Positions 5,184 through 54,488 of a DNA stretch of 64,000 nucleotides are shown here, in pieces. The notes below the pieces were generated by a model that saw only the letters and a program-made list of their open reading frames with translations, had not been told where the DNA came from and did no database searches. Within the stretch, counting starts at the first letter, position 1, and each line of letters starts with the position of its first letter. Source of the DNA: Caminibacter mediatlanticus TB-2 (GTDB lineage Bacteria > Campylobacterota > Campylobacteria > Campylobacterales > Nautiliaceae); NCBI RefSeq assembly GCF_005843985.1, contig NZ_CP040463.1:1104001-1168000 (forward strand). The letters run 5' to 3'. The translations under genes were made by a program, and so were the position numbers.

Positions 5184-6149
5184 ATGAAAATCGCAATTCT
5201 TACAAGCGGTGGTGATTCATCAGGTATGAATGTAGCGATTAAAAGATTTGTTGAATATTCATATGAAAAAAATTTCACGCCTTATTTTATCTATGATGGA
5301 CTTGAAGGATTGATTGATGGAAAAATAAAAAAGGCTAATTATAAAGATGTTAGAGGAATAATTTGTAGAGGTGGGACAATTATTAGAAGTAGTAGGTCTA
5401 AAAGATGGTTTGATAAAGAGTATAGAAAAAAAGCTTATGAAAATTTAAAAAAACAGTCAATCGATGCTTTAATAATTTTAGGTGGAGATGGAAGTTTTAG
5501 AGCATTAAATGTTTTTTATAAAGAATTTAAAATTCCTTTTATTGGAATACCAGCTACTATTGATAATGATATAGCTTTAAATGAATACTCGATTGGTGTT
5601 GATACCGCTTTAAATGTAATAAGAAGTGCAATTGATGATATTAGAGACACTGCAAGTAGTTTTAGTAGAGCTTTTGTAATTGAAACAATGGGAAGAGAGT
5701 GTGGATACTTAGCCCTTATTAGTGCAATAAGCAACGGAGCAGAGATGTGTTTGATTCCTGAGATGTCTTATAATCTTGATAGATTAAAAGAGAAATATCT
5801 AAAAGAAATAAAAAATGGAAGAAACTATTTTTTAGCAATTGTTGCTGAGGGAGTTAAAAAAACTGAGTTTATTAAAGAGTGGTTTGAGAGAGAAATAGGG
5901 TTTGAAAGCAGAATAACAATTCTTGGCCATATTCAAAGAGGTGGAGCGCCTACAACAATAGAGAGATTAAGAGCAGTAGAGTTTATGAGCCTTGCCCTTG
6001 ATAATATAGAAAATAATCCAAATAAGATAGTAACATTTTGTGATGATAAGTTTATATTAAGAAATTTGGAAGAGATTATAAATTCTAAATATTCTCTTCC
6101 AAAAAAAGCACTTGAAATAGCTAAACCTTTAATGGGATTAGATGGATAA
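5184..6149 (+). CDS. pfkA: 6-phosphofructokinase (ATP type)
   Basis: Commits fructose-6-phosphate to glycolysis. The 321 residues match bacterial PfkA. Motifs: ILTSGGDSSGMNVAI at the N-terminus, GGDGSFRA around 99-106, PATIDNDI near 119-126 with the catalytic Asp, MGRECGYLA near 170 and ILGHIQRGGAPT near 245. GGDG with a small residue before TIDND favours ATP over pyrophosphate as phosphoryl donor (family knowledge; pyrophosphate enzymes usually have GGDD and KTIDND). The stop overlaps the start of the broken mtfA gene by eight bases, so the two were once translationally coupled. Confidence 0.93.
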   Translation: MKIAILTSGGDSSGMNVAIKRFVEYSYEKNFTPYFIYDGLEGLIDGKIKKANYKDVRGIICRGGTIIRSSRSKRWFDKEYRKKAYENLKKQSIDALIILGGDGSFRALNVFYKEFKIPFIGIPATIDNDIALNEYSIGVDTALNVIRSAIDDIRDTASSFSRAFVIETMGRECGYLALISAISNGAEMCLIPEMSYNLDRLKEKYLKEIKNGRNYFLAIVAEGVKKTEFIKEWFEREIGFESRITILGHIQRGGAPTTIERLRAVEFMSLALDNIENNPNKIVTFCDDKFILRNLEEIINSKYSLPKKALEIAKPLMGLDG

Positions 6150-6759
6150 ATTTAAAGAATTTTTAATTATTTTGTGGGGAGGATTTTTTTATATCTTTTG
6201 TTTGGGATAATTTTTTATACCAATTCCAAATAAGTTTGTTATTTTAAAAATATTTAAAACTTCTATTGTTTCAATACTTTTATAATTTTCCATTGTCCAT
6301 TTTCAATTTTCAATTGATATAATATATCCACATACAATTATTAAAGAAGAAAAAGGATATTTAAAAGAAAAGATATTAATAAGTGGAGAAGCTGTTAAAG
6401 ATATAGTTATACTCTCTTGGAATGAAATTAAAAGAGATTTAAAAACTCTAAAAAGAAACATAATAATTCACGAGTTTGCTCATATTTTAGATTTTGAAGA
6501 TGGAATTGCAGATGGCATTCCGCCTATGGATGAGAAAATGAGAAATGAATGGAAAAAAACTATTTTAGAAAAATATAAAGAATTAAATCATTCTCATCAC
6601 ATTTTTATTGACTCTTATGCCCTAACAAATGAAGCAGAATTTTTTGCAGTAATTAGCGAATATTTTTTTATGCAGCCAAAAAAATTAAAACTGCATTATC
6701 CTATAATTTACGATGAATTAAAAAAGTTTTATAAAATTGACACTATTAAATTAATTTAA
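6142..6759 (+). pseudogene. MtfA-type zinc peptidase gene, broken by deletion and stops
   Basis: One reading frame covers the remains of an MtfA/DUF980-like metallopeptidase. The start overlaps the pfkA stop and gives MDKFKEFLIILWGG, a membrane anchor, then an in-frame TAA at 6208 followed by FFIPIPNKFVILKIF. A second TAA at 6283 lies inside a heptanucleotide repeat. The catalytic part then resumes as IYPHTIIKEEKGYL, SGEAV, LSWNEI, the zinc motif HEFAHILDFEDG, ADGIPP, and NEAEFFAVISEYFF to a normal C-terminus. The N-terminal cytoplasmic portion is missing roughly 50-70 residues. A protein starting at 6526 would lack the HEFAH site, so no active enzyme is expected. Confidence 0.8.
6252..6323. 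repeat. Degenerate heptanucleotide repeat, copy 1
   Basis: A 72-base element whose right part is built from 7-base units such as ATTTTCC, ATTGTCC and ATTTTCA, ending ATTGATATAAT. About 62 of 72 positions match copy 2 at 21189-21260. It sits exactly where the mtfA-type gene lost its middle part. Confidence 0.75.
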
Positions 6760-21194: not shown

Positions 21195-21260
21195 AACTTC
21201 CATTATTCCAAAACTTTCATAATTTTCCATTATCCATTTTTCATTCTCAATTGATATTAT
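21189..21260. repeat. Degenerate heptanucleotide repeat, copy 2
   Basis: Fills the gap between two convergent genes, overlapping both stop codons. It contains units ATTTTCC, ATTATCC, ATTTTTC and ATTCTCA and ends ATTGATATTAT. About 62 of 72 positions match copy 1 at 6252-6323. I see no stable hairpin, so it is not an obvious intrinsic terminator. Confidence 0.75.
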
Positions 21261-37862: not shown

Positions 37863-39524
37863 TTAGTCAAATTCATAATATGCGTTTTCTCCTTTTGATT
37901 TCAAAACTTTGTTAATTGTAATTCCACCTTTTGTATAAATTATATTTAATGGCAATTTTTCATCATATTTTATTAAATTTTTATCAAAATTTTTTTCAAC
38001 AAAACTTAACATAATATTATTACTATCTGGATTTATATATAAAAATTCATCTCTTTCAAATTGAGAATTAAGAGCTTTTAAATATTTTGCTGTAACTATT
38101 TCAAATGGTTTTTGTTGATAATTAAAATCTTTACTTAAAAAATGAAATTTTTTATCATTTGTTAAAAATCCATCACTATAAGGAGGTTTATTAAAAATTT
38201 TTTTTCTATACAATGTTTCATTTACTTTTTCTAATTCACTTTTATTAAGTATTTCATTTATATACCACTCTTCCTCTTTTAACCCATCAAAACTAAAAGC
38301 ATCAAAAAGAAATTTTGTAAGTTCATATTCACTAATACACTCTTTATTATTCATTTTCCATTTTTCATTGTTCATTATTCTAATGTATTCATCAAAATAA
38401 CTACCTCTAATATCTTTTTTTTCATAAAAATCTTTTGTAGGAATAAAAAGTTTAGCAATTTTTGCACTCTCATCATAATATTTACCAAAAACTATTGTTG
38501 TTTTTTCCTTTAATTTCTCCCATTCATTTCTATTTACAAAACTAACAAGAGGATTAGCACCTTGAATAAAAATAACATCAAAATCATCTAAATTAATATC
38601 AAAAAGAGCAATTTCATTTTTATGAGAAATATCTATTGGATTATAAATCCCATAATTACTACTTCCAAGAAATGCAACACCACTATCTTTTTTGCCAAAA
38701 TAATCCAACATAAAAAAAAGTGAATCTATTGCTGCTGTTGTTTTATAACACTCTTTACATTTTGCAACTCCAAGACCAGTTAATACAACAGCACCATCTT
38801 TTATAAATTCCAATAAATTTTCTACTTCTTCAAAACTAACCCCAATTTTTTTTAATAATTCTTCTTTTGAATATGAAAAAACTATTTCTTTAAACTTATT
38901 AAACCCTACTCCATCTTTTCTTTTAATTAAATTTCTTTCAATTACCATTTGAGATAGTAAAATCGCTAAATAAAAATCACTATTTGGTTTTACTTGTAAA
39001 AAATTATCTGAGTTTTTAGCAGTTTTACTCTCAATTGCATCAATAGTAAAAATCTTTTTATTTTTTATTAAAGGCAAAAGATGAATATTTGTAACATACG
39101 GATTTCTACCCCAAATTAGAACTTTTTTTGTATTTTTAATTATCCAAGTTGGAAGAATTAAACTTTTACCTCTTGTATAATTAATCCCCCTCTCTCCAAT
39201 TCCATCGCATGTAGACCCTACTCCAAATGTAGCACCATACTTTTCAAAAAAAAGCTTTGTAATATTTTGCATTATGCCCATATGACCTGAGCCTTTTATA
39301 AACAAAACTTTTTTTGGCTCAGTTTTTTTTAATATATCAACTAATCTATTTAAAGCATAACTTAACATAATATTTTTTCCATTAAATTTAGGAAGGGATT
39401 CTTTTTTATATTTAAAGTAGTTGTTTAACTTATAACAAAGATATGGAGTAATTCCATACCCTTTTATTTTATTATCTTCTATTCTAACTTGACAGGCATC
39501 GTAGCAATCAAGAGGACAAAACAT
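37863..39524 (-). CDS. Molybdopterin oxidoreductase-family protein, compact
   Basis: A 553-residue member of the formate dehydrogenase/DMSO reductase family. MFCPLDCYDACQVRIEDNKI at the start has three Cys (C-x3-C-x3-C) for an iron-sulfur cluster, then YTRGKSLILPTWII near 120 and WGRNPYVTNIHLLP near 137; IFIQGANPLVSF near 316 binds the cofactor. The C-terminal domain is short (typical length 650-800). Residues about 382-393 (MNNEKWKMNN) are encoded by heptanucleotide repeat copy 3. No electron-transfer subunits adjoin it; substrate unknown. It overlaps ychF by one base. Confidence 0.78.
   Translation of the reverse strand: MFCPLDCYDACQVRIEDNKIKGYGITPYLCYKLNNYFKYKKESLPKFNGKNIMLSYALNRLVDILKKTEPKKVLFIKGSGHMGIMQNITKLFFEKYGATFGVGSTCDGIGERGINYTRGKSLILPTWIIKNTKKVLIWGRNPYVTNIHLLPLIKNKKIFTIDAIESKTAKNSDNFLQVKPNSDFYLAILLSQMVIERNLIKRKDGVGFNKFKEIVFSYSKEELLKKIGVSFEEVENLLEFIKDGAVVLTGLGVAKCKECYKTTAAIDSLFFMLDYFGKKDSGVAFLGSSNYGIYNPIDISHKNEIALFDINLDDFDVIFIQGANPLVSFVNRNEWEKLKEKTTIVFGKYYDESAKIAKLFIPTKDFYEKKDIRGSYFDEYIRIMNNEKWKMNNKECISEYELTKFLFDAFSFDGLKEEEWYINEILNKSELEKVNETLYRKKIFNKPPYSDGFLTNDKKFHFLSKDFNYQQKPFEIVTAKYLKALNSQFERDEFLYINPDSNNIMLSFVEKNFDKNLIKYDEKLPLNIIYTKGGITINKVLKSKGENAYYEFD
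38346..38380. repeat. Degenerate heptanucleotide repeat, copy 3 (coding)
   Basis: Five consecutive 7-base units in strict phase: ATTATTC, ATTTTCC, ATTTTTC, ATTGTTC and ATTATTC. The units belong to the same series as copies 1, 2 and 4. It lies inside the molybdopterin oxidoreductase gene and reads as MNNEKWKMNN there. Confidence 0.7.
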
Positions 39525-53203: not shown

Positions 53204-54488
53204 CCATTATCCTATATTTAGCAACTTTACTTAAAAGTTTAAAAAAGTTAGGAAACGACGTATTAATACACTCAGCCTGTTGTATCTTCATACCTGATAA
53301 AATACCAAGTATAGCAAAGCTCATAGCTATTCTATGGTCACCAAAAGAATCGATTAATGCACTTTTTACATCTCCTCCTATAATCTCATATCCATCTTCA
53401 AATTCTTTTGCCTCAACTCCGCATTTTTTGAGATTTTCAACTACTGCTTTTATTCTATCACTCTCTTTTACTCGAAGTTCTTTTGCTCCTCTTACAATAC
53501 TTTTACCATGAGCAACTGCCATTGCCATTGCAAGAGCTGGAAGTTCATCAATAAGCCAAGGAATATTATTACTAACTTCTACTGCTTGTAATTGATTTCC
53601 TTTTACAACAATATCTCCAATTGGCTCATATTTATCCTCTTTTAAAATATATTCTATTGTAGCCCCCATTTTTTCTAATACTTTATATGCTTCAATACGT
53701 GTTTGATTTAAAGTAACATTTTTAATTATTGCAGTAGAGTTAGTAATTGCAGCAGCCACCGCAAAGAAAAATGCACTACTTGGGTCATTTGGAACAGTTA
53801 TATTTAACGGATTTAATTTCTCTTTTAATGGAGCAATATTAACTCTCCATTTTCCATTTTCCATTTTACATTCAATATCTGCTCCCATACCTTTTAGCAT
53901 TCTCTCAGTGTGATCTCTACTTAAAAATGGTTCTATATATGTTGAAATATCATTTGTATTTAAAGCTGCAAGAATCATAGCAGATTTTACTTGAGCAGAT
54001 GCTATTTTACTTTCATATTTAAATGATTTTAATTTACCTCCTCTAATAGAAAGAGGAGCTAAATTTGCATTTTCTCTTCCATCAATTTTCGCTCCAATAC
54101 TAATTAAAGGAGCTGAAATCCTTTTCATTGGTCTTCTTCTTAAATATTCATCACCAGTTAACACAAAAAAACCATCAACTCCTGCTAACAATCCTGAATA
54201 AATTCTTATAGTAGTCCCACTATTGCCACAATATAAAACATCATCAGCTTCTTTTATCTTTTTAGGAGCAATTATTTTTATAACATCACCATTATCCTCT
54301 ATTTTCGCTCCAAGTTTTTTTGCAATTTCAAGTGAATTTAGAGTATCTTCTGCTCTTAAATAATTCTTAATAATATTTTCTCCATTAGTTAAAAGTGAAA
54401 AAATGGCACATCTATGAGAAATAGATTTATCAGCATCAACCAAAAACTCTTCATTAAATTGCTTACCACTAAAAACTTCCAAAATCAT
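53193..54488 (-). CDS. aroA: 3-phosphoshikimate 1-carboxyvinyltransferase (EPSP synthase)
   Basis: Shikimate pathway enzyme, 431 residues. [17 protein letters not shown] near 17, [18 protein letters not shown] near 85, and [11 protein letters not shown] near 117 form the substrate site; [15 protein letters not shown] near 235 and [10 protein letters not shown] near 340 follow. Residues about 205-216 ([10 protein letters not shown]) are encoded by heptanucleotide repeat copy 4, in a loop between two strands of the second domain. Overlaps pheT by four bases. Confidence 0.95.
53842..53876. repeat. Degenerate heptanucleotide repeat, copy 4 (coding)
   Basis: Five 7-base units in phase, ACTCTCC, ATTTTCC, ATTTTCC, ATTTTAC and ATTCAAT, inside aroA. 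The central units are identical to each other and to a unit of copies 1-3. Translated on the minus strand it gives KMENGKW. Confidence 0.65.

Follow-up and report, generated by a model that had tools for sequence, protein, structure and literature searches.

The 64,000-nucleotide window, the whole stretch of DNA analysed here (coordinates are window positions unless a genome position or an L-numbered locus is given), belongs to a genome of 1,685,887 bases that is assembled as one contig and was rated 100% complete by the tool used. It contains an intact pfkA gene followed by the remains of mtfA, a peptidase M90 gene, with a short repeat-bearing element inside the mtfA frame (Table 1). When the frame was translated with X at its stops, it matched Peptidase_M90 (PF06167) with an E value of 3.2e-42 and 145 bits, but over profile positions 93–243 only; ATLF gave a weaker match, below that model's cut-off. 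This remnant is the one PF06167 match in the whole genome.

The mtfA start (ATG 6142) overlaps the pfkA stop by 8 nt in the sequence ATGGATAA, an overlap present in this genome only, among those seen. Translation from this start gives MDKFKEFLIILWGGFFYIFCLG followed by the first of two in-frame stops; the second precedes a C-terminal frame that is open over more than 140 codons and retains both the HExxH zinc motif, as HEFAH, and the C-terminal domain. With two stops and about 90 codons gone, mtfA is not a complete ORF with an N-terminal region. The initial annotation had described the frame in these terms (a start coupled to pfkA, two stops, a missing middle and a preserved catalytic C terminus), and both the translation and the PF06167 match bear it out. 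Past the second stop, the first in-frame ATG, GTG or TTG lies 3′ of HEFAH; the HEFAH-bearing C terminus cannot be made from a normal start codon, and no working peptidase is therefore expected. If an unusual start were used, the intact and open remainder of the gene might still yield a functional C-terminal form of MtfA, but the lack of any in-frame ATG, GTG or TTG between the second stop and HEFAH argues against it, as does the occurrence of the short form in none of the 14 other host-family genomes that have mtfA (the host family being the bacterial family to which this genome belongs). We regard such a variant as extremely improbable; relatives sharing the short form had been named beforehand as a counter-observation, and the search of 21 genomes revealed none. 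It is likely that mtfA is a pseudogene in which a 102-bp, non-autonomous element of the MITE kind, with a four-unit heptad array, stands in the frame in place of about 90 codons.

Table 1 Features of the pfkA–mtfA locus (window positions).
Feature	Position	Strand	Details
pfkA, intact, 321 aa	5184..6149	+	PF00365, E 2.3e-98; stop overlaps mtfA start (ATGGATAA)
mtfA (peptidase M90) remnant frame, likely a pseudogene	6142..6759	+	Translation, PF06167, alignment of relatives; in-frame stops TAA 6208-6210 and TAA 6283-6285
mtfA N-terminal part, ~25 codons	6142..6217	+	Own frameshift and stop TAA 6208-6210; left edge approximate
Left flanking triplet TTA	6215..6217	.	Element alignment
MITE-like element, 102 bp	6218..6319	+	Ends TACCAATT / AATTGATA (consensus AATTGGTA); brings TAA 6283-6285
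Heptad array, four TTKTCMA units, within element	6286..6313	+	
Right flanking triplet TAA, unlike left	6320..6322	.	Element alignment
mtfA C-terminal part, open	6322..6759	+	HEFAH 6469-6483; no ATG/GTG/TTG before ATG 6526

The heptad array, which reads TTTTCCA TTGTCCA TTTTCAA TTTTCAA, forms the 3′ part of the element. A longer sequence is common to the flanks of several heptad arrays, and a 106-base element query found 46 places in the genome at E values up to 10, 23 of which are strong (at least 77 bp and at least 82% identity; L046–L068, window copy included). Terminal inverted repeats, TACCAATT...AATTGGTA, are visible in 26 aligned rows, and the end motif TWATACCAATT occurs at 41 genome places, compared with 6 for a reversed control. 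The repeat had been said to occupy the exact position of the missing segment; the position holds, but the array is only one end of a larger element. In the version first put forward, the heptad array itself inserted or expanded in mtfA, with no larger element involved. Element-free arrays are indeed common in the host family, also within genes, but at mtfA a further 68 bases 5′ of the array match other copies (94% over the 106-base query) and both inverted ends are present, and we consider an array-only event very unlikely.

The element is probably mobile, about 100 bases long and present in many copies in this genome; its ends, size and copy number suggest the label MITE-like. Mechanically called ORFs place the other aligned copies in intergenic DNA, within short and doubtful ORFs or across a gene end. 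Among the matches listed, the only further host-family genome with long element matches was G016, from another genus, which has three. Flanking triplets were readable at both ends in 17 copies (9 of the 26 rows, cut or unclear, were left out, and for L050, L065 and L067 a manual reading was used). Equal triplets were found in 11 of these 17 copies (permutation p = 0.066), in 11 of the 15 flanked by TWA at each end (p = 0.12) and in 11 of 17 once the two G016 copies flanked in this way were added to these 15 (p = 0.27); target duplication, which is not significant in any of the three counts, was rejected as proof of transposition. No autonomous partner was present among the 41 end matches, which cover the exact 11-base end only, and one facing pair of ends 4.4 kb apart (225865 and 230274) had no element-like sequence behind the ends. 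Folding of the minus strand as RNA gave z = −2.72, with 2 of 200 shuffles as good, and folding of the plus strand as DNA gave z = −1.14, with 25 of 200 as good. Searches for exact matches returned none for the element core in genome_contigs (two patterns) or viral_contigs and none for the 30-base heptad array in viral_contigs, collections from which near genomes may be omitted. At one locus (L148, C1:7700-8500), two copies in the same orientation are separated by about 40 bp. At four others (L048, L049, L060 and L062), a neighbouring ORF extends into the element's 3′ end and terminates within it, and the element may therefore have replaced gene ends.

Prokaryotic MITEs, as described in a published review (PMC10969869), are likewise short, non-coding and present in many copies with inverted ends, inserted for the most part in intergenic DNA, with one copy here in a gene; what differs is that one end of this element carries a heptad array and that our search turned up no transposase partner. 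The 2009 genome paper on Nautilia profundicola (PMC2628731) describes no typical transposons and one potential transposase in that species, and C. mediatlanticus as having no other identifiable transposases.

We compared mtfA across 21 host-family genomes, this one included. The gene is whole in 14 of the 20 others, with matches that run from profile position 5–25 to 243 without stops; the element is absent from these genes, and in the alignment their proteins cover the segment lost here. In the relatives, I/V-Y-P stands at residue index 115 or 117, and the left edge of the scar lies near codon 25, which puts the loss at about 90 codons (~270 bp). At the right edge, where the element is followed by TAATATATCCACATACA, the sequence joins the I/V-Y-P codons of the relatives directly, as judged by eye. 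The left edge, GGGATAATTTTTTA, resembles GAAATAATTGATTA of L045 at 10 of 14 positions by eye; the likeness to relatives reaches this edge but is less sharp than on the right, and the deletion edge is blurred. A PF06167 match is absent from 6 of the 20 other genomes, including two 99%-complete ones from this genus, and the gene is therefore dispensable.

The initial annotation had placed the insertion or deletion after formation of the pfkA–mtfA pair. Gene order in the relatives speaks against an old coupled unit: mtfA lies directly 3′ of a crcB-like gene in all 10 loci examined (of 14 fetched), and it follows pfkA at none of the 12 pfkA loci examined by eye (pfkA was matched in 13 relatives, and the weak G010 match was left out). 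In this genome, crcB, named through PF02537 here and through a shared N terminus in the relatives, is followed by four tRNA genes and not by mtfA. Because mtfA neighbours crcB in the relatives and pfkA here only, we infer from gene order that it was relocated, moving, before or after the element arrived, from an ancestral place behind crcB to its place behind pfkA. Intact mtfA genes without the element do exist in relatives, but at the loci examined they lie behind crcB and not behind pfkA. An assembly error or chimeric join could also place mtfA behind pfkA, a position unseen in relatives and beside a repeat. However, the genome is a single, complete contig, an element of about 100 bp is rather short to mislead an assembler, and the place where mtfA meets pfkA is not at the element; such an artefact is very improbable.

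Host homology ends near both edges of the element, and because the deletion is bounded by it, the deletion is probably element-linked. Two routes can be proposed. Two copies may have entered mtfA, one at a TTA site and the other at a TAA site some 270 bp away, and recombination between them would then have left one copy with unlike flanking triplets and removed the middle of the gene. Alternatively, a single copy may have moved one of its ends, removing the adjacent stretch of mtfA. Either route would yield one whole element, unlike triplets and a deletion ending at the element's edges. We rejected the unlike triplets as proof of two-copy recombination, as those of L054, L059 and L067 are unlike too, and offer that route as an interpretation.

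The deletion could instead have come first, or separately, with the element inserting later at or near the breakpoint in a dead gene. The 5′ part of mtfA has its own frameshift and stop, such that its decay is not solely the element's doing; the two same-genus genomes that lack a match mark the gene as dispensable; and the unlike triplets of the window copy would fit as well. This order of events nevertheless requires a coincidence, as host homology ends so close to both element edges, and we think it unlikely. An element-linked deletion accords with the part of the initial annotation that proposed insertion of an element and loss of the middle, which the intact genes of 14 of 20 relatives support; the heptad repeat alone as the insert gives way to the 102-bp element. 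The loss of mtfA is ordinary gene decay, by a new MITE-like family, and for mtfA itself the import is small: a dispensable gene was apparently moved, invaded and lost.

A metabolic meaning had also been suggested for the loss of mtfA beside pfkA. In E. coli, MtfA acts with Mlc and ptsG in the enteric circuit. The two genes share a family (PF06167) and an HExxH-type motif, but here mtfA is broken and the genome has no PTS EIIC domain (PF02378; the control was positive in 7 of 14 named genomes). The enteric ptsG circuit is therefore without a target in this genome, and the glucose-uptake reading is not applicable.

Arrays of TTKTCMA also occur in the host family without the 102-bp element. With up to one mismatch, a 16-mer heptad pattern gave 192 matches in this genome, compared with 19 for a control pattern built from the reversed unit, and a 23-mer pattern gave 76 compared with 1; the array at mtfA is not a product of chance. 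We scanned 397 genomes of the phylum, 9 of them from the host family, with the 23-mer pattern (up to one mismatch). Matches were found in 8 of the 9 host-family genomes (3 to 76 each; none in G003) and in 8 of the 388 others, with only 1–2 each, whereas the reversed control matched once in this genome, twice in G016 and 20 times in six outside genomes (at most 11 in one). Simple AT-rich drift was rejected as the source of the heptads, as controls are lower overall, here and among orthologues (31 versus 12, below), although in G017 taken by itself the count of arrays with four or more units is 5 against 3 for the control, and the control reaches 11 outside the family.

We surveyed the position of arrays relative to mechanically called ORFs in the window and in 38 stretches that had been chosen for a match and are thus non-random (6 of the 38 had no three-unit array). 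Of 50 arrays, 30 lie fully in ORFs of at least 60 aa, 11 overlap an ORF end and 9 fall between ORFs; among the 30, the encoded peptide is of the MENGKWK type in 24 and of the FSIFHF type in 6. Further arrays in the window lie in frame in ORFs of 553 aa (38354-38374) and 431 aa (53850-53870; AroA-like, with the peptide CKMENGKW), and another lies between ORFs (21223-21250). Arrays of 21 nt leave genes open, as 7 and 3 have no common factor and none of the six frames of the repeat contains a stop.

Segments of eleven array-bearing proteins, named from resemblance as AroA, RnhB, MurE, GalE, RecJ, KdtA, U32, UbiD, MqnD, UvrC and NadE, were compared with four genomes, giving 44 orthologue segments. 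By reading, an array stands in the same loop in 25 of the 44, one of which, UvrC in G001, has weak two-unit pieces only; for the U32 protein, arrays were present in 0 of 4 segments. Overall, the orthologue segments hold 31 arrays, compared with 12 for the reversed unit. In loci of array-bearing proteins, 122.5 kb in total, there are 24 arrays with four units or more (control, 4); 38.3 kb of loci picked without regard to arrays hold 2 (control, 0). Many arrays lie in frame in the variable loops of conserved enzymes, and several genera often carry them at the same loop. The unit itself varies between species: G018 prefers C at base 3 (TTCTCMA over TTTTCMA) in 22 of 34 units, compared with 16 of 94 here (p = 6e-7), the latter taken from a hand list of 23 arrays, with units within an array not independent; counted by array, the preference is 6 of 8 compared with 4 of 23 (p = 0.006). 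It is seen in G018 at separate loci, for example L211, L216 and L228.

The heptads are the unusual feature: direct repeats, open in all frames, placed in enzyme loops and varying by species. The loop arrays and the species-specific unit hint at an active writing or homogenising process. A speculative proposal, which we judge unlikely, is that TTKTCMA arrays are being written or homogenised in the host family by a live, sequence-specific process acting at permissive places. Such permissive places would comprise variable enzyme loops, intergenic DNA and the end of the MITE-like element in mtfA. Preference for one unit variant throughout the genome of a species would be consistent with copying from a single template, for example a small RNA serving a reverse transcriptase, or else with steady gene conversion among arrays. 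Should arrays be written into the loops of enzymes and held uniform inside one species, they would be a source of new protein loops, and the process, if real, would be DNA writing by no known agent.

Short tandem 7-base repeats scattered in genomes are familiar from cyanobacteria as STRR heptanucleotide repeats. According to one report (PMC4679880), the TAACTGA heptamers of Beggiatoaceae, Cyanobacteria and Bacteroidetes are, like the heptads here, dispersed 7-base arrays suspected of mobility and with no known mechanism, but they are mostly intergenic, lie upstream of start codons and contain stops in one orientation. Here, the unit is TTKTCMA, (TTTTCCA)n is free of stops in all frames and arrays often lie inside conserved enzymes (30 of the 50 in the chosen stretches are within ORFs), which sets them apart from the TAACTGA type. 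Rickettsia palindromic elements, as described in the review on MITEs (PMC10969869), are similarly in-frame DNA elements inside unrelated genes, but they are palindromes of about 150 bp, whereas heptad arrays are non-palindromic direct repeats of 21–63 bp. Titles and abstract beginnings in the open-access literature yielded no prior description of the heptad or the element in this bacterial family.

At two loci, named by resemblance, the ATG with which an ORF begins lies inside a heptad array: L192 1274-1301 (PyrE-like, MENGQLKMEN) and L203 1245-1279 (NadE-like, MENGQWKMSNEKW). The densest spot seen was L189 4135-4281, where two arrays near the N terminus of a 196-aa ORF together hold 14 heptad units.
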